From positions 1-31,574 of the IMG/VR virus record IMGVR_UViG_3300008450_000261: DNA of 31,574 bases; one strand, given 5' to 3'. The translations under genes and the position numbers were made by a program. The notes under the pieces are model-generated. The model was given only the letters and a program-made list of their open reading frames with translations. It was not told the DNA's origin and searched no databases. The stretch comes from a virus. Below, piece after piece: positions 3,315 through 31,178 of this stretch. Position 1 is the first letter of the stretch, and every line of letters begins with the position of its first letter.

Positions 3315-4277
3315 ATGATATCATTGCTTGGGATCTTTAAGGAATTAATTCTTGAAGGAGGAAATGTATTTGGCACTACTTCCCCTATTAAAAAAGAATA
3401 TATACAACCTACTTTAGAAAAATTCACACAGGAACTAAAAAAAGTATTTCCAAAAGTTGACTTTAAATTTAGCACCCTAGGATCAGTAGGTAAAAAAGAT
3501 GAATCTGGTGATATTGATTTAGCATTAAGTGTAGACCAGTTTATGTCTAAAGATGGAGAACCATTATTAGACAAATGGGGACTAGATAAAGATGAATTTA
3601 ATCTACTATTTGAAAAAATCAGAAAACGCGCTAAAACAGCATCAGAAGCTCAAAGTAAACTTAGAGCAATGCTTGAGTTAATAGCTGCTAAACTAGAAGC
3701 AACCTCAGACTATATTACAACAGATATTAAGGCAGCAGGTGGTGGTTCTATATTTTGTAACTTTAATCAATATAATGAAAAAGGTGAAGAAGTAGGAGAT
3801 ATATCTGTTCAAATAGATATTAATGTAGGTAACCTAGATTGGTTAAACTTTAGCTATTATTCAAATACATATAAAGATAATGTAAAAGGATTACATAGAA
3901 CACAATTAATGTTAGCTATGTTTGCTGAAGTAGGATTATCTTTTAATCATAATAGGGGTGTAACAGATAAAGAAACAGGAGAAGTAGTAGCAACTAATCC
4001 AAAAGAAGCAATACACGCTCTAAATCAAAAGTATGGTATAAAAATAACTCAAGATATCTTAAATGATTATTTTGAGTTAATGGATTATATTAAGGATAAT
4101 CTTCCAACAGATAAACTAAATGGCATTCTTGATAGGTATCTAAAAATATTAGATTCAACACGAGCAGATATACCAAATGACTTACAACCATATTGGATTG
4201 AAAACCAAGATAGACTAGGATTAAAAGGTAAGTTCTTACCCGATAACTCTAACCTAACTAAATACAAAACAGCATAA
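3315..4277 (+). CDS. Polymerase-beta-superfamily nucleotidyltransferase
   Basis: 320 residues. G56-S57 followed by SGDIDLAL with D66 and D68 is the hallmark GS...DxD of the polymerase-beta-type nucleotidyltransferase fold, where the two Asp bind metal. DISVQIDINVG near 160-170 can supply the third acidic strand. The C-terminal third is helical. It is a paralog of residues 1-160 of the next protein: both have an xPTxxKxxxxxxKxxP helix before the GS motif and a later NPKEAIHALNQKYGI / DPEKVFKRLGI helix. The N-terminus LLGIFKELILEGG looks like a short prohead leader with a possible ILE|G protease site. The substrate is unknown. The stop overlaps the next ATG by one base. Confidence 0.75.
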   Translation: MISLLGIFKELILEGGNVFGTTSPIKKEYIQPTLEKFTQELKKVFPKVDFKFSTLGSVGKKDESGDIDLALSVDQFMSKDGEPLLDKWGLDKDEFNLLFEKIRKRAKTASEAQSKLRAMLELIAAKLEATSDYITTDIKAAGGGSIFCNFNQYNEKGEEVGDISVQIDINVGNLDWLNFSYYSNTYKDNVKGLHRTQLMLAMFAEVGLSFNHNRGVTDKETGEVVATNPKEAIHALNQKYGIKITQDILNDYFELMDYIKDNLPTDKLNGILDRYLKILDSTRADIPNDLQPYWIENQDRLGLKGKFLPDNSNLTKYKTA

Positions 4278-7200
4278 TGTCAGGATCAATAGGAGCAAAT
4301 AGAATACCTAGAGAAGCTGTTGAACCAACAGTTAAAAAATATATAGAGAATATTTTAAAAAAATACCCTCCATTTAGAAGCGCCAAAATCTCAGGATCGT
4401 ATAATACAGTAATCAAACCAGATCATGGTGATTTAGATTTAATTATCCACGTTGATGCAGGTGAAGATGATAAAAAACTACTTAAAAAAAAGTTTGCAGA
4501 GTATTTAAATTCTCTACCAGATGATGTTACTGTCCCTTTTAAAGCAGGACGCCACCAAGGTAAAAAAACAGCAGGCACTGGAGATATAGTTATCACCCAA
4601 ATCCCAGTAGAAGGATACCCTGATTTAACAGTTCAAGTAGACAATATGATTGTTACCTCAGAACAAGAAAGTGATTATAGAAAAAGTTTTTTAGATATAC
4701 CTGGTGAAAAACAAGCATTAATAATAGGTTTAGTTAAAACCATATTGATGGAAGAAGATCCTGAAAAAGTATTTAAACGTTTAGGGATTACAAATCTACC
4801 TAAACTAGATCCAAATCAAGAGTTTGAATTTAATTTATCATCAAAAGGCTTAACATTGCGTTTAGTAACATTAGATGATAATTATAAAGAAATAGCTCGC
4901 AATGATATTTGGGATTCATTTGATTGGAATGATGTAGTAAAACTATTTAGTAACTATGACTTAAACTCATCATTTGAAGATTTATTAGCAAAAATCAAAA
5001 CAGGCTTAAAAAACCCACGTTCAAAAAATCGAATTAAGGGACTGTTTAAATCAATGTTAGTAATTGGAGCTGGTGAAAAAGGAACACCTAAAGGTGACAA
5101 TAAAGAAAAAGCATTAGCTCAAATTAGCCAACTTGAAGAAAATCTAAATGATGAAAGTGTAGTAGCACTATACCCTGGTAAGTTCAAACCACCACATAGA
5201 GGACACCTAAATGTATTAAACCAGCTTTCATCTAACCCTGACATAGAAAAAGTAATAGTTCTGATATCACCTAAACCTCATGAAGGTATTACTGCTGAAC
5301 AGAGTTTAGACATATGGGAAAAATTATATTTACCCTTAACTATAAATCCGAATAAAGTTGAGTTTGTTGTATCTCAAGTAACTCCTGTAAAAGATGTATA
5401 TGATATAGCAATTGCAAACCCTGACACTAATTTTATAGCAGCATATGGTAAAGAAGATGAAAAAAGATATGCTAAACTCCCACCTAATGTTAAAGCATAT
5501 AACGCTGGCAACATTGAAGGAATAAATGCTACCGGCTTAAGAGTAGCATTGAACTCACAAGGTGATATAACTCCTTATATTCCTAAAGAAGTTTCCCCAA
5601 TTGAATATCTTGAAACTCTTGGAGCTTTATTACATGAAAGCTTAAATGAATATACTAATCAATCTACATTAAATCCTATAGTATTTGATGGAACAACAAT
5701 TAAACCTAAAGTTAGAGAAATATTATTAAAAATAGCTAATTATTTTTGGGATTCTATGGAATTAGACATCCCATTCGAAGACGTACTACTTTTAGGCAGC
5801 TCAGCTAACTATAATTGGACTCCATCTTCAGACATAGATTTACATCTTTTAGTAGATTATTCTCAATTTGCTGATCCGGAATTAGTTAAAAAATATTTTG
5901 ATTCAGTTAAAGCTAAATTTAATGAAGATCATGATTTAAAAATAGGGAATAATGAAATTGAATTATATATTCAAGATACTAATGAATCTAATGCTAGTAT
6001 AGGAATATTTTCTGTATTAAATAATAAATGGATACAAGAACCTGAATTAGAAAAAATAGAAATTCCTGATTCTGATATTAATGATTTAGCTACCCCTTTA
6101 AAGCAAGAGATTGACCAACTAACCTCCCTCCCTCCTACAGAAGATACTCTTAAAAAGTTAATTAATCTAAAAGATAAAATTAAACAATTCAGACAATCAG
6201 GACTAGATAAAGATGGTGAATACTCACTAGAAAACCTTGCCTTTAAAGAATTAAGAAACTCAGGATATATTAAAAAACTATTAGATTATAAAAACAATGT
6301 TATAGATAAAGTTCTGGTAACAGAAATTTTTGATAAACCTGTAGATGCTTACTCATTTAATGAATCTGGAGATGGTACCTATCTATTTACATCAGATAGT
6401 GGAAACCAATATGTAGTTTATATAGATGAAGTTAGCGAAAACAGAATTGCCATAGATTTTGGAATCTCAGATGAAACAGGTGATATAGATTATCCTGAAA
6501 CAAATGTAGGTGAATTATATAAAGTAATGTCTACTATTATAGCAATTGCTAAAGATTATATAAATCAACATCCTGAAATAGAAATTATTTCTTGGTCATC
6601 TTTAGCTAAAAGAGGACAAAAGAAAATTGGAGATACTCAACGTGACAAATTATATAAACTAATTCTTAAAAAACAAGGAGGATTATCTGATAAAGATATT
6701 CGTTTTATAAATGGTGAATGGTGGGCATACTTAAAAGGTTATGATGCTTTATTTGAAAAATTTACTCAAGACCACGCTAAAGTAGACCTTCCAGAACCAT
6801 TTACATATGAAGATCTTGTAGATATAGATCAATATGCTGATGATGCTTTAAAACCAATAGATGTTAATCTTGATCCTAAATCAAATGGACATTTTTTAGA
6901 TAGAGCTATTGAGAGAGGTATAACTAAAGATGAATTAAAAGATTTCTTTGCTAGATTAGGATTAAAAAAAGATAACTTAAAATATCTTTTTGCTAAAGCA
7001 AAAGAAAAAGGAGATAGTGATGTTGTAGCAACAGATAAAAAAACAAACATTAGTATCCCATTTGAAGATACTACCCCAAGTGCTACAGATCGAATAAAAA
7101 ACCGAATTAAATCTATAGGAGCTAAAACGGTACATAAAAAACCTAATTTTCATACTCCAAATGTTAGACTTACATTTGCTGAAACTGAAAAAGATCCATT

Positions 7201-8038
7201 TGGATTAAATGCTTATGCTAGAGAATTAGCCAAAGGATTAGAAGAAGCAGACCCTAAAACAGGTACTGGTAAAAAACCAAAAGGATCAGGACGTCGTTTG
7301 TATACTGATGAAAACCCTAAAGATACAGTTGCTATTAAATTTAAAACTAAAGAAGATATAGTTGCTACTTTAAATAAATCATCATTTAAATCTAAGTCTC
7401 ATGCTCGTCAATCTCAAATTATTAATTTAATTCACCAACGAGTTAGAGCAGCATATCAAAATGCTAAAGATCCTGAAGTAAAATCAAGATTAAAACGAGC
7501 CTTAGAATATATTACTAAACGTAAAGAAGCATCTAAAAAGAAAACTGAGCGTTTACGTAAACTAAAAGAAAACCTAGATCCTAAAACTTTTAAAGACACC
7601 GGAAAAGCTGGAAAATATGGCTCAGGATACGATTTAGCCAAAGAAAACCAAACCCCAGAACAGGTTATGGATTTTAAAACTTTATTATTATCTTTAACAC
7701 ATTATTTAAAAAATAAATTAAATGTAACTCCTTTACCTAGGGTAAAATTTATTGACAATGATATAGAAAATGCTAATAACATATTAGGAAGAACAGCACA
7801 TTATGATCCTAATAATAAATCTATAACATTATATACATTTAATAGACACCCAAAAGATGTATTACGCTCATATTCACATGAGATGATACACCATATGCAA
7901 AATTTAGAAAATCGTTTAAAAAATATTAGTACAACTGATATTAATGAAGATGATTATTTAAAAGAAATTGAAAGAGAAGCATATGAAAAAGGTAATATAT
8001 TATTTAGAGAATGGGAAAATGCGTTAGAAAATAATTAA
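4277..8038 (+). CDS. 1253-residue multidomain protein: nucleotidyltransferases, adenylyltransferase-like, metallopeptidase
   Basis: Domains in order. (1) Residues ~5-160: polymerase-beta-type nucleotidyltransferase with SGSYNT (G40, S41) and HGDLDLII (D52, D54). (2) ~296-440: HxGH nucleotidylyltransferase of the NMN-adenylyltransferase type, PGKFKPPHRGHL with H307 and H310, and INATGLR at 416-422 as the ISTxxR-like motif. (3) ~475-600: second nucleotidyltransferase, GSS at 507-509 and SDIDLHLL with D519 and D521. (4) ~690-825: phage domain ending in EIISWSSLAKRGQ, unrecognised. (5) ~870-960: HFLDRAIERG region, faintly like phage RelE/barnase-type nucleases. (6) ~990-1085: very basic helical segment with GTGKKPKGSGRR, probably nucleic-acid binding. 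(7) ~1110-1253: zincin-type metallopeptidase, HEMIHH at 1201-1206 and EREAYEKG at 1232-1239. Linkers contain (L/I)xE sites such as SLNE|Y, so processing into pieces is plausible but inferred. Confidence 0.75.
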   Translation: MSGSIGANRIPREAVEPTVKKYIENILKKYPPFRSAKISGSYNTVIKPDHGDLDLIIHVDAGEDDKKLLKKKFAEYLNSLPDDVTVPFKAGRHQGKKTAGTGDIVITQIPVEGYPDLTVQVDNMIVTSEQESDYRKSFLDIPGEKQALIIGLVKTILMEEDPEKVFKRLGITNLPKLDPNQEFEFNLSSKGLTLRLVTLDDNYKEIARNDIWDSFDWNDVVKLFSNYDLNSSFEDLLAKIKTGLKNPRSKNRIKGLFKSMLVIGAGEKGTPKGDNKEKALAQISQLEENLNDESVVALYPGKFKPPHRGHLNVLNQLSSNPDIEKVIVLISPKPHEGITAEQSLDIWEKLYLPLTINPNKVEFVVSQVTPVKDVYDIAIANPDTNFIAAYGKEDEKRYAKLPPNVKAYNAGNIEGINATGLRVALNSQGDITPYIPKEVSPIEYLETLGALLHESLNEYTNQSTLNPIVFDGTTIKPKVREILLKIANYFWDSMELDIPFEDVLLLGSSANYNWTPSSDIDLHLLVDYSQFADPELVKKYFDSVKAKFNEDHDLKIGNNEIELYIQDTNESNASIGIFSVLNNKWIQEPELEKIEIPDSDINDLATPLKQEIDQLTSLPPTEDTLKKLINLKDKIKQFRQSGLDKDGEYSLENLAFKELRNSGYIKKLLDYKNNVIDKVLVTEIFDKPVDAYSFNESGDGTYLFTSDSGNQYVVYIDEVSENRIAIDFGISDETGDIDYPETNVGELYKVMSTIIAIAKDYINQHPEIEIISWSSLAKRGQKKIGDTQRDKLYKLILKKQGGLSDKDIRFINGEWWAYLKGYDALFEKFTQDHAKVDLPEPFTYEDLVDIDQYADDALKPIDVNLDPKSNGHFLDRAIERGITKDELKDFFARLGLKKDNLKYLFAKAKEKGDSDVVATDKKTNISIPFEDTTPSATDRIKNRIKSIGAKTVHKKPNFHTPNVRLTFAETEKDPFGLNAYARELAKGLEEADPKTGTGKKPKGSGRRLYTDENPKDTVAIKFKTKEDIVATLNKSSFKSKSHARQSQIINLIHQRVRAAYQNAKDPEVKSRLKRALEYITKRKEASKKKTERLRKLKENLDPKTFKDTGKAGKYGSGYDLAKENQTPEQVMDFKTLLLSLTHYLKNKLNVTPLPRVKFIDNDIENANNILGRTAHYDPNNKSITLYTFNRHPKDVLRSYSHEMIHHMQNLENRLKNISTTDINEDDYLKEIEREAYEKGNILFREWENALENN

Positions 8039-11242: not shown

Positions 11243-11413
11243 ATGAAACAAGAGTTATTTGAACAAATGCAAGCTTTATGGAGTGAATTAGTAGAAAACC
11301 ACAATGAAACTACAAAAGCAGCAGCAGGTCGTGCTAGAAAAGCAGCCAGTAACCTCAAAAAAGTAATTGCCGCTTATAATAAAGCATCAGTTGCTGAAGG
11401 TAAAACTAAATAA
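11243..11413 (+). CDS. Histone H1-like DNA-binding protein (Hc1 family)
   Basis: 56 residues, not overlapped by any other good frame. The pattern KAAAGRARKAASNLKKVIAA followed by YNKASVAEGK matches the Hc1/histone H1-like family common in Bacteroidetes, whose members read roughly AAGxRARKAxxxLxKxxxxxxKxSVxE and have a helical N-terminus like LFEQMQALWSELVENH here. These proteins bind and compact DNA. In a phage late region it may condense the packaged genome or alter host chromatin after infection. Start ATG at 11243, stop TAA 11411-11413, with a strong terminator 17 bases later. Confidence 0.75.
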   Translation: MKQELFEQMQALWSELVENHNETTKAAAGRARKAASNLKKVIAAYNKASVAEGKTK

Positions 11414-11429
11414 GTATGCCTAAAAACTA

Positions 11430-11461
11430 AAAGATAAGGGGGGTTAAAACCCCCTATCTTT
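11430..11461. terminator. Strong hairpin terminator
   Basis: AAAGATA and GGGGG pair with CCCCC and TATCTTT around a short A/T loop, with a one-base bulge. A/T stretches on both sides mean it could act on both strands; no minus-strand gene needs it. It closes the histone-like gene's transcript. Confidence 0.75.
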
Positions 11462-18329: not shown

Positions 18330-19634
18330 ATGAATAAGAAAATAGTAATTATTGGAGCAGGAGTAGCAGGTATAAATGCAGCTACTAAATTAGTTGATAA
18401 CGGCTACCCAGGTGAATTGATCACCATTATAGACAAAGGTAATGATCCACATAACCGATTACCTGAAGAGGTAATGACTGGTATGTTAGGTGCTGGTGGG
18501 TGGAGTGATGGTAAATTAACATACCATACTGCTATCGGAGGTGTATTATCTAAGTATTGTGGTGAAGACAAAGCAATGGAATTAATGGATCAAGTTATTA
18601 GTAACTTTAGACGTTTTCATCCTAAACCAGAAGAAATATTTTGTTCTGATCCACAAGAAGAACCTGATTTCATTAAACCATATTTTGGATTACGCCTATT
18701 CCCAGTATGGCATATTGGTTCAAATTATCTACATGAGATTGCTAAAGCATGGTATCAATATTTAATTGATAAAGGTGTTAATTTTATGTGGGGAACTGAA
18801 ATTACTAACCTAAATCTAGCTAATAATTGGGTTAACTATATTGATGGATATGGAGAAAAAGAAGCAATAACATATGATACCCTCATATTTGCAGTGGGTA
18901 AATCAGGTATTGATTTTGCTCAAAAAATATCTAACCAATATAACCTACCTACAGAGCCTAAATCAGTTCAAATTGGAGTACGTTTTGAAGCACCACAAAA
19001 ATACTTCCAAAAACTAATTGATGTTAGTTATGATTTTAAACTATATCAAAAGTTTGATAATGTATCATTACGCTCATTCTGCACCAACAATAACGCAGCT
19101 TATGTAGCAGTTGAAGAAACTTATGGAGATATAAGTTATAATGGTCATGCTAAAAAAGGTGAAGAATTTAGAAACGATATGACTAACTTTGGTATATTAA
19201 TGGAAATTAAGGGTATTAAAAACCCATTTGAATGGTCAAGAAATATAGTTGAAAAATGCCAAGCTAATGGTAAAGGATTATTTTACTCACCAGGTTATAC
19301 TAGACAACCTAGTCTAACATCTGAAGGAAATGAAGTATCTGCTGTACCTATTAGTTGGTTAAGTTTAATAGGAGTAATGGAGGCGTTTGAAGGATATTTT
19401 GAACACATTATTAACTTTATCGACCAAATGAATAAAGTATTTGAATTTGGTGATGATTGGGGAATGTATATCCCTGAAGTAAAATATTTGAGTCCTGAGC
19501 CACTAGTTGATTATACTAATTTAGCTCTTACTACCTATCCTAATGTACATTTCGTAGGAGATGCATTAAGTGCTAGAGGTATAACAGTTAGTGGTGCACA
19601 AGGAATTTATGTAGCTGAAAATCTATTAAAATAA
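18330..19634 (+). CDS. FAD-dependent oxidoreductase
   Basis: 434 residues. The N-terminal Rossmann dinucleotide site is KIVIIGAGVAGINAA with G9, G11 and G14, and an acidic IIDKG follows where the adenosine ribose binds. TLIFAVGKSG near 185-195 is the second nucleotide-site strand, and HFVGDALSARGITVSGAQG near 408-426 is the C-terminal FAD motif (GD ... GI). The overall shape fits the uncharacterised FAD-dependent dehydrogenases (COG2509-like). The substrate is unknown. It has its own promoter and terminator-bounded position with a glycosyltransferase, so it looks like an auxiliary metabolic unit inserted between head genes. No leader or signal peptide. Confidence 0.8.
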   Translation: MNKKIVIIGAGVAGINAATKLVDNGYPGELITIIDKGNDPHNRLPEEVMTGMLGAGGWSDGKLTYHTAIGGVLSKYCGEDKAMELMDQVISNFRRFHPKPEEIFCSDPQEEPDFIKPYFGLRLFPVWHIGSNYLHEIAKAWYQYLIDKGVNFMWGTEITNLNLANNWVNYIDGYGEKEAITYDTLIFAVGKSGIDFAQKISNQYNLPTEPKSVQIGVRFEAPQKYFQKLIDVSYDFKLYQKFDNVSLRSFCTNNNAAYVAVEETYGDISYNGHAKKGEEFRNDMTNFGILMEIKGIKNPFEWSRNIVEKCQANGKGLFYSPGYTRQPSLTSEGNEVSAVPISWLSLIGVMEAFEGYFEHIINFIDQMNKVFEFGDDWGMYIPEVKYLSPEPLVDYTNLALTTYPNVHFVGDALSARGITVSGAQGIYVAENLLK

Positions 19635-22515: not shown

Positions 22516-24096
22516 ATGAGTGAATCCCCAAATATTAGGGATATAATTCGTGAAGAGTTTGTAAAGTGCGCCCAAGATCCGGCGCACTTTATGAACAAAT
22601 ACTGTTTTATCCAACACCCACAAAGAGGTAGAGTTCATTTTAATTTATACCCATTTCAAAGTAAAGTATTACGTTTATGGAGAGATAACCCATATTCTAT
22701 AGTACTTAAATCTCGTCAATTAGGTATATCAACATTAGCAGCTGGGTATTCTTTATGGTTAATGATGTTCCATAAAGATAAAAATGTATTGTGTATAGCA
22801 ACTAAACAAGAAACCGCTCGCAATATGGTAACTAAGGTTAAGTTCATGTTTGATAACTTACCATCTTGGTTAAAAATACCTGCTGAAGAAAATAATAAAC
22901 TTTCTCTACGACTTAACAATGGATCCCAAATTAAAGCAACATCTGCAAGTAGTGATGCTGGTCGATCAGAAGCAGTATCATTATTGTTAGTCGATGAAGC
23001 AGCATTTATTGAAGGAATTGGTGAAATATGGGCATCTGCTCAACAAACCTTAGCAACTGGTGGTGGAGCAATTGTATTATCTACCCCATATGGTACAGGT
23101 AATTGGTTTCATCAAACATGGGTTAGAGCAGAAGCTCAAGAAAATGATTTTTTACCTATTAAACTACCTTGGTTTGTTCACCCTGAACGTGATGAAGCAT
23201 GGAGAAAAAGACAAGATGAATTACTAGGTGACCCCAGAATAGCAGCTCAAGAATGTGATTGCGACTTTAGCACTTCAGGTGATGTAGTATTTTATAATGA
23301 ATGGATTGAATTTATATCTCAAACTACAATTAAAGAACCACTAGAGCGAAGAGGAACAGACCAAAATTTATGGGTTTGGGAACCAGCAGATTATTCTAGA
23401 GATTATATGGTTACTGCGGATGTTGCTCGTGGTGATGGTAAAGACTTTTCAACACTTCATGTAATTGATGTTGCTACTAATACTCAAGTTGCTGAGTATA
23501 AAGGACAACTTCCTCCTAAAGAATTTGGTTATTTTTTAGTAGCTATTGCTACTGAATATAATCAAGCACTATTAGTAGTAGAAAATGCCAATATAGGATG
23601 GGCAACCTTAGATGCAATACAAGAAAGAAACTATAGAAATCTATATTTCTCTCCACGATCAGACTCAGGAATGACAGCTGAGTCATATTTAAATAAATAT
23701 GAAAACCAAGATAATTTAGTTCCTGGTTTTACAATGTCTCTTAGAACTAGACCTCTAGTTATTAACAAATTCAGAGAATATATAGGTGATAGAAGTGTTA
23801 CAATTCAATCTAAACGATTACTTGAAGAAATGAAAGTATTTGTTTGGAAAAATGGTCGTCCTGAAGCTCAATCTGGGTATAATGATGATTTGGTAATGAG
23901 TTTTGGTATTGCAATGTATTTAAGAGACACATCATTAAAATTTCAACAACAAAGTCTTGATCTTACAAGAAACGCACTTAATAATATTACTTCAACTAGG
24001 AGCCCTTTAAAAGGTGCATATATTACAGGAACACCAGGTAATCCGTATAATATGGATATTAATGGACAACAGGAAAACCTGAACTGGTTGTTTTAA
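22516..24096 (+). CDS. Terminase large subunit (gp17-like)
   Basis: 526 residues; powers DNA packaging at the portal and cuts the concatemer. The ATPase domain begins near 45 with FNLYPFQSKVLRLW (adenine-binding Gln region). The Walker A region LKSRQLGIST has K65 at its start and I71 where T4 gp17 has the usual Lys, a deviant P-loop as in many phage terminases. Walker B is LLLVDEAAF with D160 and E161, then a coupling motif LSTPYGTGN. The nuclease domain has D302 in TADVARGDGKDFST, E356 in VVENANIG and D457/D458 in NDDLVMS. Slightly shorter than T4 gp17 (610). The N-terminus ESPNIRDIIREEFVK partly resembles the leader motif. Confidence 0.95.
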   Translation: MSESPNIRDIIREEFVKCAQDPAHFMNKYCFIQHPQRGRVHFNLYPFQSKVLRLWRDNPYSIVLKSRQLGISTLAAGYSLWLMMFHKDKNVLCIATKQETARNMVTKVKFMFDNLPSWLKIPAEENNKLSLRLNNGSQIKATSASSDAGRSEAVSLLLVDEAAFIEGIGEIWASAQQTLATGGGAIVLSTPYGTGNWFHQTWVRAEAQENDFLPIKLPWFVHPERDEAWRKRQDELLGDPRIAAQECDCDFSTSGDVVFYNEWIEFISQTTIKEPLERRGTDQNLWVWEPADYSRDYMVTADVARGDGKDFSTLHVIDVATNTQVAEYKGQLPPKEFGYFLVAIATEYNQALLVVENANIGWATLDAIQERNYRNLYFSPRSDSGMTAESYLNKYENQDNLVPGFTMSLRTRPLVINKFREYIGDRSVTIQSKRLLEEMKVFVWKNGRPEAQSGYNDDLVMSFGIAMYLRDTSLKFQQQSLDLTRNALNNITSTRSPLKGAYITGTPGNPYNMDINGQQENLNWLF

Positions 24097-24118: not shown

Positions 24119-26035
24119 ATGGCAGATACTAACCTATTTACCCGACTACGAAGATTATTTTCAACAGATGTTATTATTCGTAACGCTGGGGGAACTCAAC
24201 TAAAGGTAATGGATACTAATACTATCCAAACCTCGGGACAATACATGAATAATTCCTTAATGGATAGATTTAATAGAATTTATTCTACTAATTCAACATC
24301 CTTATATGGAGCCCAATTAAATCTTAACTACCAGTATCTTCGCCCTCAATTATACTCAGACTATGATTCAATGGATACAGATGCAATTATCTCTTCTGCC
24401 TTAGATATTATTGCTGATGAATGTACTCTTAAAAATGATATGGGTGAAGTACTTCAAATTAGAAGTAGTGATGAAGATATCCAAAAAATATTGTATAATT
24501 TATTCTATGATGTATTAAACATTGAGTTTAATTTATGGTCTTGGATTCGTCAAATGTGTAAATATGGTGATTTCTTTCTAAAATTAGAAATAGCTGAAAA
24601 ATTTGGTGTATATAATGTTATCCCATATACTGCATACCACATTATGCGAGAAGAAGGATACGAAAGAGCCAACCCAGCAGCTGTAAGATTTAAATTTAGT
24701 CCTGATGGATACGCTGGTGGTACTGGATATTACGGTACTCCAAACGCATATGGAACATATGGTGGTAAAAAAGATGAAAATGCTATTTATTTTGATAACT
24801 ATGAAATGGCTCATTTTCGTTTAATGACAGATGTAAACTATCTTCCATATGGACGTTCTTATTTAGAACCTGCTCGTAAATTATTTAAACAATATGTTTT
24901 AATGGAAGATGCTATGCTTATCCACCGCATTGCTCGCGCCCCAGAAAAACGTATTTTTTATATCAATGTTGGTTCTATTCCTCCTAATGAAGTAGAAAAC
25001 TTCATGCAGAAGACTATTAGCACAATGAAGAGAACTCCTCTTATGGATCCTCAAACTGGTGAGTATAATTTAAAATATAACATGCAAAACATGTTAGAAG
25101 ATTTTTATATTCCTATTAGAGGTAATGACCAAACAACTCGTATCGAACCTACTAAAGGTTTAGATTATGATGGAATTACAGATGTAGTGTATTTAAGAGA
25201 TAAATTATTTGCTGCTCTTAAAGTACCTAAAGCATTTATGGGCTATGAAAAAGACCTAACAGGCAAAGCTACATTAGCTGCTGAAGATATTCGCTTTGCT
25301 CGCACTATAGACCGTATACAACGCATTATATTATCAGAATTAAATAAAATTGCATTAGTTCATTTATACACTCAAGGATATAAAGGAGAAAATTTAACCA
25401 ATTTTGAATTAGGATTAACTACTCCTTCTATTATTTACGATCAAGAAAAAATTAACTTATTAAAAGAAAAAGTTACTTTAGCTAAAGATATAGTAGATGG
25501 TAAATTATTACCTACTGATTGGGTATATGATAATATATTCCATTTAAGTGAAGATCAATATGATGAATATAGAGATTTAATTACTCAAGACCAAAAACGT
25601 ATCTTTAGATTAAAACAAATTGAAAACGAAGGAAATGACCCAGTAGAATCAGGTAAATCATATGGTACACCTCATGATTTAGCTTATTTATATGGCAAAG
25701 GTCGTTATGCTGCTAATTCTGAAGGTGTTCCTGCGGGATATGGAGATGATTTAGAATTAGGTCGTCCTGAAGAAAAAGCAAGTAATATTGGAACTCAAGA
25801 AAACCCATTTGGAAAAGATAGATTGGGTAATAAAGGAATGAAACAAGGAGATGATACTGGTGAAGATAAAAATATAAAGAATAATTTTAAAGGAAATAAT
25901 CCTTTAGCATTAGAAAATGCTCAAACTGCATTTCTTAAAAATAAAAATATATTTGAAAGTCTAGATAAAAAACTAGTATTTGAATCTGATAAAAACAAAG
26001 AATCATTATTAGATGAATCTCAAATAAAAGAATAA
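24119..26035 (+). CDS. Portal vertex protein (gp20-like)
   Basis: 638 residues forming the dodecameric ring at the unique head vertex through which DNA enters and leaves; it also starts head assembly. Recognised from the T4 gp20 pattern: an N-terminal segment then YSDYDSMDTDAIISSALDII, LWSWIRQMCKYGDFFLKLEI, YTAYHIMREEGYE, later LPYGRSYLEPARKLFKQYVL, IHRIARAPEKRIFYINVG and the clip/stem region with VPKAFMGYEKDLTGKATLAA, followed by ARTIDRIQRIILSEL. T4 gp20 is 524 residues; the extra length is mostly a Gly/Asn/Lys-rich C-terminal tail ending in IFESLDKKLVFESDKNKESL. Strong assignment. Confidence 0.95.
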   Translation: MADTNLFTRLRRLFSTDVIIRNAGGTQLKVMDTNTIQTSGQYMNNSLMDRFNRIYSTNSTSLYGAQLNLNYQYLRPQLYSDYDSMDTDAIISSALDIIADECTLKNDMGEVLQIRSSDEDIQKILYNLFYDVLNIEFNLWSWIRQMCKYGDFFLKLEIAEKFGVYNVIPYTAYHIMREEGYERANPAAVRFKFSPDGYAGGTGYYGTPNAYGTYGGKKDENAIYFDNYEMAHFRLMTDVNYLPYGRSYLEPARKLFKQYVLMEDAMLIHRIARAPEKRIFYINVGSIPPNEVENFMQKTISTMKRTPLMDPQTGEYNLKYNMQNMLEDFYIPIRGNDQTTRIEPTKGLDYDGITDVVYLRDKLFAALKVPKAFMGYEKDLTGKATLAAEDIRFARTIDRIQRIILSELNKIALVHLYTQGYKGENLTNFELGLTTPSIIYDQEKINLLKEKVTLAKDIVDGKLLPTDWVYDNIFHLSEDQYDEYRDLITQDQKRIFRLKQIENEGNDPVESGKSYGTPHDLAYLYGKGRYAANSEGVPAGYGDDLELGRPEEKASNIGTQENPFGKDRLGNKGMKQGDDTGEDKNIKNNFKGNNPLALENAQTAFLKNKNIFESLDKKLVFESDKNKESLLDESQIKE

Positions 26036-27430: not shown

Positions 27431-28906
27431 ATGAAAACACCAACCATACAAGAACAATACAATCTTATTAAAGAAGGTAAAGGACATAAAGGCGTATTTA
27501 TGAAAACAGTACGTAGCTTATTTCCTGAATATATAAATCAATATACATCATTTGATGATACTGTTAGTATTTTAAAAAGTAAAAGTGTTTTAAGTGAGGG
27601 GATTGGTGGTTTAGTTACTACTGGTAGAAAACAAGATTGGCATGCTATCTTTAATGAGAATATGGGTTCTATGAATTATGATTCATGGAAAAAAGAATTA
27701 ATAGATATTATTAAAAAAGATGCTAATCTTGATGATAATGAAATTGAGATAGATGAAGAAGAAATAAAAAGATACTATAAAGAAGGTAAATCCCCTAATG
27801 AAGTATATAATAATATCTGGCTTAAGGATGCAGGAAATTTTCGTTCTTTAAATGAATCTAAAGAAGCTAAAGCTGAAGAAAAAAAGCCTACTAAAGATGT
27901 AGTTGATATGGAAACACGTGGGTTTGATTATAAAGATCCTAAAAATATTGACAATGTTTATGGTCAAGAATTTTTATTAGGATATTATACTGAAATGAAA
28001 GACCCCAAAAATAAAGATAAAAGTGTTGATGAATTAAAAGAAATTGTTGCTAAAAATTTAGCTAAAGATAATCAACATTATGTTAAAGATGGACAATTTG
28101 GTGTTAAAGGTTTAGGATATACTACTGAAGCACCTGGTTTAGGTAAACCAAAAGAAGTAAAAGGTAAATACAAAGCATCAGGAATGGAACCTGTTAAACT
28201 AAAAGAATCTAAAATGAACCTAAATGAAAATTTTAGTGAAGAAGATACTGAAAATTTAAAAGATATACTTTTTAAATACATTGAAGACCCAAATGATGCT
28301 GAAAAACAAGTAGACGTCTTCTATAACACTGGTGAATTTTCAGACCCAAGACTATCAAATATAAATGATGATGAAGAATTTATTGAATGGTTAAAAGGAG
28401 AAGAACCACCAAAAGAAGATAGTAAATACGATGGGTATATTACTAGAGATATGGGTGGTAATCCTGACATTTATGAATCTAAACTACGTAAAGTAATTTC
28501 TCAATTAATTAAGGAAGAACTTAATATGAAAGAAATTGAAGAAGTTGGTGAAGATGCTAAGAAAAAAGCAATGGGTAAAAAAATTGATGAGGAAATTGCT
28601 AAACGTAAGAAAAAACTTAAAGCATTAACTACTTTAACTGAACTTGAAGAAGATTCTGTTAATCCTAAAAAAGTTAAAGAATTAACAAATGACATTAAAA
28701 AGTTAGAAGCTGCTAAAAAGAAATTAAATAAAGGTAAGAAAAAAGAAGAAGTTGAAGAAATTACACTAGTAGATAAAAATACTTCAACAGCTTCTGCATC
28801 TGAAATAGACAAAGCAGAAGGAACATCCTCAGGAACTGCAGCAGCCGCTATCGAAAAAGCTAAAGCTACCGGAAAACCAGTAGGAGTTGAGGGCCCTAAA
28901 AAATAA
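27431..28906 (+). CDS. Large acidic core-region protein with internal leader helix
   Basis: 491 residues, very charged. Regions: ~1-60 helical (YNLIKEGKGHKGVFMKTVR is a recurring T4-like phage segment), ~70-145 acidic (DWHAIFNENMGSMNYDSWKK), ~175-260 with DNVYGQEFLLGYYTEM and KDGQFGVKGLGYTTEAPGLG, then an internal leader-type helix ESKLRKVISQLIKEELNMKE at ~350-370, then a Lys/Glu coiled-coil (~375-450) and an Ala/Thr-rich tail. MNLNE, SLNE and MKE|I sites could be cut by the prohead protease. Probably a precursor of the inner core. It sits 5 bases after the previous gene and just before gp21. No enzymatic motif. Confidence 0.6.
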   Translation: MKTPTIQEQYNLIKEGKGHKGVFMKTVRSLFPEYINQYTSFDDTVSILKSKSVLSEGIGGLVTTGRKQDWHAIFNENMGSMNYDSWKKELIDIIKKDANLDDNEIEIDEEEIKRYYKEGKSPNEVYNNIWLKDAGNFRSLNESKEAKAEEKKPTKDVVDMETRGFDYKDPKNIDNVYGQEFLLGYYTEMKDPKNKDKSVDELKEIVAKNLAKDNQHYVKDGQFGVKGLGYTTEAPGLGKPKEVKGKYKASGMEPVKLKESKMNLNENFSEEDTENLKDILFKYIEDPNDAEKQVDVFYNTGEFSDPRLSNINDDEEFIEWLKGEEPPKEDSKYDGYITRDMGGNPDIYESKLRKVISQLIKEELNMKEIEEVGEDAKKKAMGKKIDEEIAKRKKKLKALTTLTELEEDSVNPKKVKELTNDIKKLEAAKKKLNKGKKKEEVEEITLVDKNTSTASASEIDKAEGTSSGTAAAAIEKAKATGKPVGVEGPKK

Positions 28907-28910
28907 TATA

Positions 28911-29522
28911 ATGAAACAAGTATTAATAGAAACCCAATACTTTACTGCTAAACCTATCAAATTAGCTGAAGGAAAATCTCCAACAGGTAATCCTTTAGTT
29001 CAAGGTATTTTAGCTACAGCCGAAGTAAAAAACGGAAACGGTAGATATTATGCTAAAGATTTATGGGAACGCGAAATAGATAAGTATATGGAAAACGTTA
29101 ATGCTAATAGAGCATTAGGCGAATTAGACCACCCGGACTCATCTATTATTAATTTAAAAAATGTATCTCACAATATTAAAAAAATATGGTGGGATGGAGA
29201 TAATGTAATGGGAGCTATTGAAATTCTTCCTACACCATCTGGTAACATTCTAAAAGCATTATTTGAAAATAATATACCAGTAGGTGTTTCATCTCGTGGT
29301 ATGGGTTCATTAAAACAAATGGGTGAAATAATGGAAGTACAAGATGATTTTGAATTATTGTGTTGGGACTTTGTATCAACACCTTCCAACCCAGGCTCAT
29401 ACATGAAAGAAGTAGGTATGATGAATGAATCTAAACAAAATAAACAAATAAACAAATACCAAAAAGTAAACTCTATTATTACTGATATATTATGTTCTAA
29501 TGGATCTTGCCCAATATTTTAA
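28911..29522 (+). CDS. Prohead core protease (gp21-like)
   Basis: 203 residues from the ATG at 28911; a TTG at 28887 would extend it through the end of the previous gene and is not needed. The herpesvirus-assemblin-like serine protease features are present: GELDHPDSS with H74, and VGVSSRGMGSLK with S127/S128, followed by LLCWDFVSTPSNPGSYM, which holds the third catalytic region. Length is close to T4 gp21 (212). It activates inside the prohead and cuts scaffold, core and leader proteins at (L/I)xE sites. The C-terminal tail QNKQINKYQK may be self-cleaved. It lies just upstream of the scaffold as in T4. Confidence 0.92.
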   Translation: MKQVLIETQYFTAKPIKLAEGKSPTGNPLVQGILATAEVKNGNGRYYAKDLWEREIDKYMENVNANRALGELDHPDSSIINLKNVSHNIKKIWWDGDNVMGAIEILPTPSGNILKALFENNIPVGVSSRGMGSLKQMGEIMEVQDDFELLCWDFVSTPSNPGSYMKEVGMMNESKQNKQINKYQKVNSIITDILCSNGSCPIF

Positions 29523-30005: not shown

Positions 30006-31178
30006 ATGAGTAAAGACTTATTTAAAGAAGCAATTGCTGATGCTAAAGCTGTAAAAGAAGCAGCTATCAACAATGCTAAACTTGCTCTTGAAGAAGCTTT
30101 CACTCCACATTTAAAATCTATTCTTGCTGCCAAATTAGAACAACTTGATGAAGTTGAAGATAAAATGGAAGAAGCAGAAGATGAAAAAATGGAGGAAATG
30201 AAAGACAAAAAAGAGATGGAAAAAGAAAATCTTGACGAATTGGATCTTGAAGAAATTTTAAAAGAACTTGAATCCCTAGAAGAAATGGGTGATGAAGGAG
30301 ATGATAAAATGGAAGAAGCAAAAGACGAAAAAGATGATCTAAAAGAAATGTATTATGAAGATTCTGAAGAAGAAGGAGGTGAAGAAGAATTCGATCTTGA
30401 AAACATGGATATGGATGATTTGAAAAAAGTCATTGAAGATGTTGTCGAAGATATGATGGCTAGTGGTGAACTAGAAGGTGCTGAAGAAGAAGGTGAAGAA
30501 GAAGAATTAGATGGTGAATTGGATACTGAAGAAGCTCCAATTGATGAATTAGATATCAATGAACTTTTAGCAGAAATTGAAGAAATGGAAAATGAAAAAG
30601 TTCCTATTAAAGAGTATGCTACATTTGTGAGTGATTATTTATCTCCACTAATGGGACTTTTAGCCGCCGGTTTACCAATCGCTTCAATCACAGGCTTGTA
30701 CTTATATGAAAAACATAAAGAAAAAGCTAAAGACATAGTAGCTAAAGCAGAAGCAGGTGATGAAAAAGCTAAAGCTGAAATAGAAAAAGCCAAAATGGAA
30801 GCTGAAAAAGTTACCTCAAATCTTGAAGAAACTGATAATAAAGAAATGGAAAAAACCATTGCTGAATTACGTTCTGAACTTAATGAGGTTAATCTATTGA
30901 ATGCTAAACTTCTTTACACTAACAAGATTTTCAAAGCCAAAAACCTTACAGAATCTGAAAAAGTAAAAGTATTAACTACTTTTGACAAAGCAACCACTGT
31001 AAAAGAAACTAAACTAGTTTATGAAACATTATTAGAAAGTTTAAATAACAAATCTAAATCTTCTATTAAAGAATCACTAGGATCAGCTTCTAAACCAATG
31101 GGAGTTACGCAAAAACAACCAATTATTGAAACTAACGAAGTATTTGCTCGTATGCAAAAACTAGCTGGAATCAAGTAA
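30006..31178 (+). CDS. Prohead scaffold/core protein (gp22-like)
   Basis: 390 residues. N-terminal ~200 are extremely acidic with long Glu/Asp/Lys helices, as in T4 gp22, the main core protein. A hydrophobic hairpin-like stretch at 204-234 (YATFVSDYLSPLMGLLAAGL, then PIASITGLYLY) is unusual for a soluble scaffold. The C-terminal part has LNAKLLYTNKIFKAKNLTES and TFDKATTVKETKLVYETLLE, a gp22-like helical signature, and ends with NEVFARMQKLAGIK, the same core signal as at the starts of three other proteins. Expected to be cut up by the upstream protease. Strong Shine-Dalgarno and late promoter box. Confidence 0.85.
   Translation: MSKDLFKEAIADAKAVKEAAINNAKLALEEAFTPHLKSILAAKLEQLDEVEDKMEEAEDEKMEEMKDKKEMEKENLDELDLEEILKELESLEEMGDEGDDKMEEAKDEKDDLKEMYYEDSEEEGGEEEFDLENMDMDDLKKVIEDVVEDMMASGELEGAEEEGEEEELDGELDTEEAPIDELDINELLAEIEEMENEKVPIKEYATFVSDYLSPLMGLLAAGLPIASITGLYLYEKHKEKAKDIVAKAEAGDEKAKAEIEKAKMEAEKVTSNLEETDNKEMEKTIAELRSELNEVNLLNAKLLYTNKIFKAKNLTESEKVKVLTTFDKATTVKETKLVYETLLESLNNKSKSSIKESLGSASKPMGVTQKQPIIETNEVFARMQKLAGIK

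Follow-up and report, generated by a model that had tools for sequence, protein, structure and literature searches.

Histone-like proteins of tailed phages have barely been studied. The Hc1 family takes its name from HctA (Hc1) of Chlamydia trachomatis, and the Pfam domain (PF07432) is equivalent to the conserved N-terminus of HctA. In chlamydial Hc1, the conserved N-terminus dimerises and a lysine-rich C-terminus binds DNA (PMC2848022). A phage-encoded histone H1-like protein of PF07432 has been reported in the moraphages, based on four complete jumbo genomes (Arch Virol 2025), and that study already put forward a role in compacting the genome as it is packaged (PMC12619734).

Here we describe a small Hc1-type protein of marine phages. 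It is encoded in a stretch of 31,574 nucleotides (IMG/VR virus record IMGVR_UViG_3300008450_000261, positions 1 to 31,574), hereafter the window, whose main features are given in Table 1.

Table 1. Hc1, its neighbours and the head genes of the window
Feature	Position	Strand	Remarks
Upstream neighbour, 151 aa	10768..11223	+	N-terminal leader INEQFLKMQKIAGVITE, acidic linker, conserved C-terminal stretch (ALEAAKNLGDKKLVRQIGNALTYFTRQQIS)
Hc1 (PF07432) gene, 56 aa, predicted two-helix hairpin	11243..11413	+	Translation, Pfam, AlphaFold, shuffles
G+C-rich hairpin, 12 pairs, in the gap between Hc1 and the next gene	11430..11461	.	z -3.3
Downstream neighbour, 224 aa	11477..12151	+	No Pfam or PHROGs match
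Terminase large subunit	22516..24096	+	Start of the head module, about 11 kb past Hc1
T4-type portal protein	24119..26035	+	61% identical to Flavobacterium phage immuto
Prohead (head maturation) protease	28887..29522	+	Homologue directly precedes Hc1 in L021, L025, L026

The phage and its host

The terminase, portal, protease and major head protein of the window are all T4-type. By its portal protein, the closest annotated record is phage vB_FspM_immuto_2-6A (NC_055915.1, hereafter immuto), which is 60.9% identical in the portal and 59.2% identical in the terminase. Twenty window ORFs are matched in the 88-130 kb region of immuto, with their order largely kept. A Bacteroidota host is plausible, as an earlier note on this DNA had proposed. 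That note had regarded Hc1 as the best clue to the host phylum, a rank that belongs to the kinship with immuto because of the portal and terminase identities and the largely collinear gene order; in a tree with cellular homologues, Hc1 alone points equally to Neomarinimicrobiota and Flavobacteriales. The window also encodes a protein of 1253 residues (4277-8038), probably a multi-domain fusion, whose immuto homologue is annotated as NMN adenylyltransferase (NadR) and has only 907 residues.

A genuine Hc1 gene under purifying selection

The Hc1 open reading frame translates into exactly 56 residues and a stop, the length given before. The identity as Hc1 is borne out by a profile search, in which PF07432 matches the protein with 28.8 bits (E 1.2e-6, with the same result when repeated on the DNA) against a gathering score of 23.5 bits, and residues 4-54 are aligned with profile positions 2-56 of 57. 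Searches of PHROGs and NCBIfam gave nothing significant for this protein. To control for the shortness of the product and its alanine- and lysine-rich composition, an HMM was built from 66 cellular Hc1 proteins and no others. With this model, the window protein scores 38.0 bits, compared with at most 11.1 bits in 4,983 scored shuffles (5,000 made) and 0.5 bits for the reversed sequence.

Strong purifying selection acts on the reading frame. Its codons and those of Hc1 in L003 show nine synonymous and two non-synonymous differences (dN 0.015, dS 0.33); dN/dS is about 0.05 between the window and its nearest relatives and about 0.04-0.11 across six pairs of relatives. A short, alanine- and lysine-rich product with a modest Pfam score could suggest that there is no real gene, or that the match arose by chance from composition. 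However, this is ruled out by the shuffles and by the low dN/dS in several pairs, gene order is conserved, and we give the idea practically no weight. The gene is genuine and is a member of the Hc1 family.

An AlphaFold model, for which an alignment of 38 sequences was supplied (two rows from phage records were omitted), places helices at residues 2-20 and 25-55 with a mean pLDDT of 95.6. The predicted structure is a helical hairpin in which the first helix is acidic (net charge of -3 for residues 1-20) and the second is strongly basic (+8 for residues 25-56), with an overall net charge of only +4. Residues H20, K25, A31, R32, K39, K40, and Y45 are invariant in 40 phage and cellular members, and K33 is conserved in more than 90%; most of the invariant positions are basic residues of helix 2. 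Only two residues follow the Hc1 match before the protein stops at residue 56, and there is no lysine-rich C-terminal domain. A fold search of the PDB with the model found nothing under E 0.001, and hairpins of short helices resemble many unrelated proteins; a sequence search of solved structures gave a single match at E 0.78.

A divergent viral branch of the family

The match to the Bacteroidetes pattern had been called close, which is too strong because Bacteroidota proteins score higher and the phage turn is shortened and has lost the GNKAAG motif. Among the matches listed, those of Bacteroidota to PF07432 reach about 50-94 bits, the exception being one phage-like contig with 35 bits. In the window protein, 51 residues span 55 profile positions and the turn has four residues fewer; in phage Hc1 proteins generally, the turn is three to four residues shorter than in cellular ones. 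The turn and the start of helix 2 read TTKAAAGRARK in the window and GNKAAGTRARK in cells. The signature KGNKAAGxRARK, which is common in cellular members and is not a Pfam criterion, is absent from the window protein, and a simple motif count finds GNKAAG in one of 65 viral rows versus 45 of 54 Bacteroidota rows. We read this loss from the aligned sequences as the sign of a divergent branch, and not as exclusion from the PF07432 family.

Relatives of the window protein were detected in at least 229 viral contigs by a pattern scan, with patterns taken from the first five phage sequences, and the best 80 of the 229 contigs were kept. In a tree of 133 sequences, which has only 62 columns, 64 of the 65 viral rows form one group (94/84) together with two metagenome-binned contigs, L085 and L086. 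This group is partly a product of sampling, given that the scan patterns were derived from phage members. The cellular sequences closest to it are from Neomarinimicrobiota and Flavobacteriales. Hc1 is single-copy in 14 of 15 larger records. The one viral row outside the group is a second copy in L018, a record that has two Hc1 genes (2068-2253 and 4989-5159), one phage-type and one cell-like; the cell-like protein keeps the longer turn and scores 47.6 bits to PF07432. Contigs L085 and L086 were binned into bacterial MAGs, yet their Hc1 is phage-type. Since it carries groES/groEL and immuto-like neighbours, L086 is probably of phage origin despite its bacterial bin.

Gene position across phages

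The gene is not in the head cluster proper, where the earlier note had put it, but in an upstream run of small genes on the same strand, with the terminase gene starting at 22516 and the portal gene at 24119. In the relatives of the window, Hc1 is located 10-21 kb upstream of the portal gene on the same strand. When records were sampled by their portal, Hc1 was found in four of the five records over 50 kb, 10-12 kb upstream of it. In L021, L025, and L026, the order is prohead protease, Hc1, scaffold, and major head protein, with Hc1 directly after the protease. In immuto and its relatives, Hc1 follows groES/groEL, and the distance to the portal gene in immuto is 78 kb. Other phages have Hc1 adjoining DnaB, UvsX or ribonucleotide reductase genes. 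In a second group of loci, a small cluster 13 protein is followed by Hc1 and then by a FAD-type oxidoreductase. The window encodes a FAD/NAD-binding oxidoreductase (18330-19634; Pyr_redox_2, 38.2 bits) among its head-side genes, and a similar one occurs just after Hc1 in a related group. From these loci, the place of Hc1 is stable on the head side in the lineage of the window and hops between modules across phages.

The groEL and replication neighbours in many phages suggest an action inside the cell, which would suit a role in host take-over. Hc1 would then coat or reorganise the host chromosome and lower host transcription, in the manner of chlamydial Hc1 produced in E. coli, where it causes compaction of the nucleoid and repression of transcription (PMC2848022 and references cited in PMC12619734). 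However, the chlamydial DNA-binding tail is absent from phage Hc1, and in the lineage of the window the gene lies among those presumed to be late, by which time host shut-off would have ended. We judge a take-over role to be unlikely. In a further scenario, the phage branch with its deleted turn signature would have become a small and mobile accessory in large Bacteroidota phages, with partners that differ by lineage (head assembly in one, chaperonin or replication in others), possibly pairing with host Hc1 instead of compacting DNA. We regard this as a long shot.

Neighbours, leaders, and transcription signals

Homologues of the upstream neighbour directly precede Hc1 in 22 loci (the window and 21 others), and in 23 loci the gene immediately after Hc1 belongs to the cluster of the downstream neighbour. 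An obligatory pairing of Hc1 with the upstream acidic protein was ruled out, as proteins with a similar-looking C-terminus occur without an adjoining Hc1, and Hc1 occurs without the acidic protein. The recurrence of an acidic-linker neighbour directly before Hc1 is compatible with the protein acting on a protein partner, as a stand-alone dimerisation domain that would pair with this neighbour or with host Hc1 and alter it. Phage Hc1 is the counterpart of the N-terminal domain through which chlamydial Hc1 dimerises (PMC2848022), the phage branch has a shorter turn, and a possible host partner exists, with PF07432 present in 68 of 118 Bacteroidota genomes sampled. However, in the flavobacterial order that was sampled, only 10 of 40 genomes have a match, and cellular Bacteroidota Hc1 is equally short (about 57 aa), so that the loss of the tail is nothing specific to phages. 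A partner-binding role appears distinctly improbable to us.

The earlier note had described Hc1 as standing between leader genes. This holds for the upstream neighbour, which bears a recurrent leader, and fails for the downstream one, which has neither of the two leader motifs of the window. The first, [LIV][KR]x[LIV][IL]x[ED], is present in the first 25 residues of 7 of 38 selected plus-strand ORFs (8064, 10292, 13532, 14238, 21997, 22516, and 29500) versus 1.2% of internal 25-mers, and was chosen after the sequences were seen. These putative leaders look like the capsid-targeting sequences of T4-type phages. The second, F..MQK(L/I)AG, is near the N-terminus of the 10768 and 15554 proteins and is also C-terminal in the presumed scaffold protein (30006-31178; NEVFARMQKLAGIK); 20904 has a close variant, FIKMQKLAG, near its probable start. 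Head proteins may share this motif as a signal for assembly or binding.

The N-terminus of the window Hc1 matches neither of these recurrent patterns. It consists of the helix that belongs to the family itself, which is the same in phages with Hc1 near replication genes and recognisably similar in cells. The possibility that it is a degenerate leader (MKQELFEQMQ resembling NEQFLKMQK) was ruled out by the presence of the same N-terminus in replication-region Hc1. In T4, a short capsid-targeting sequence at the N-terminus directs the internal proteins (PMC9026906), and the lack of a recurrent leader on Hc1 argues against packaging by this route if the leaders are really capsid-targeting. This bears on a virion-internal histone, which would be packaged, neutralise DNA in the capsid and maybe be injected, like the basic internal proteins known from T4-like phages (PMC9026906). 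Such a role would fit the same-strand, head-side position of Hc1 upstream of the portal gene in the lineage of the window, and its place directly between prohead protease and scaffold in three records. However, besides lacking a leader of this type, phage Hc1 has no lysine-rich tail, and it is located by groEL or replication genes in immuto and many other phages. The same evidence tells against the earlier proposal that Hc1 compacts the genome in the capsid, and we consider a virion-internal role rather doubtful.

The strong hairpin after Hc1 is probably a transcription terminator, and its T-run is better read on the minus strand. Hairpins of a similar type, different in sequence, follow Hc1 in L002, L003, L009, L015, and L020, which fits a gene that stands last in its unit. 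Control by T4-like late promoters was also considered and dropped: 12 copies of TATAAATA were found in the window versus 11 expected, which is no enrichment.

A possible role in organising phage DNA

Given the gene, family, selection, predicted fold, distribution and gene contexts observed here, our preferred reading, held tentatively and at somewhat less than even confidence, is that Hc1 is an intracellular, nucleoid-type architectural protein on phage DNA and not a virion-internal one. Like the N-terminal domain of chlamydial Hc1, the phage protein would self-associate, and its basic helix would bind DNA loosely. It would organise or condense newly replicated phage DNA inside the infected cell; in the lineage of the window, this action would take place at the time of head assembly, if the gene is indeed late. 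Such a role is suggested by gene contexts in which DNA is handled (neighbouring DnaB, UvsX or ribonucleotide reductase, a place behind groEL, or one on the head side of the genome), by the mostly basic invariant residues of helix 2 and by the occurrence in at least 229 viral contigs. The absence of the lysine-rich DNA-binding C-terminus of chlamydial Hc1 and the net charge of only +4 argue against it, as do the fold search without a match below the threshold and the lack of late-promoter enrichment.

Comparison with known systems

Phage Hc1 matches the N-terminal part of HctA, and only HctA has the lysine-rich C-terminal DNA-binding domain. As judged from sequence, the absence of this tail weakens the transfer of function from Chlamydia. 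It does not distinguish phages from Bacteroidota since the cellular proteins are equally short. The cellular Hc1 proteins of Bacteroidota and Neomarinimicrobiota resemble those of phages in their length, their ARKA...KK core and their full-length family match, and differ in having three to four more turn residues and GNKAAG.

Likened by description, the moraphage protein and that of the window both belong to PF07432 and to large aquatic phages with predicted Bacteroidota hosts. Unlike the moraphages, the window derives from an immuto-like T4-type phage in which Hc1 stands beside leader-bearing genes. Immuto itself has an Hc1 (KNV73_gp196) that is 51% identical to that of the window and annotated as hypothetical. 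The head and primase regions of the two are largely collinear, but Hc1 in immuto follows groES/groEL and is not upstream of the terminase gene. Because phage Hc1 is widespread, under strong purifying selection and present in cultivated immuto (Flavobacterium sp. LMO8), the use of a bacterial-type H1 by phages for their own DNA is directly testable. The occurrence of PF07432 in phages was already known from the moraphages; new here are its wide spread, the loss of the signature, the shifting gene context, and its presence in an isolate.
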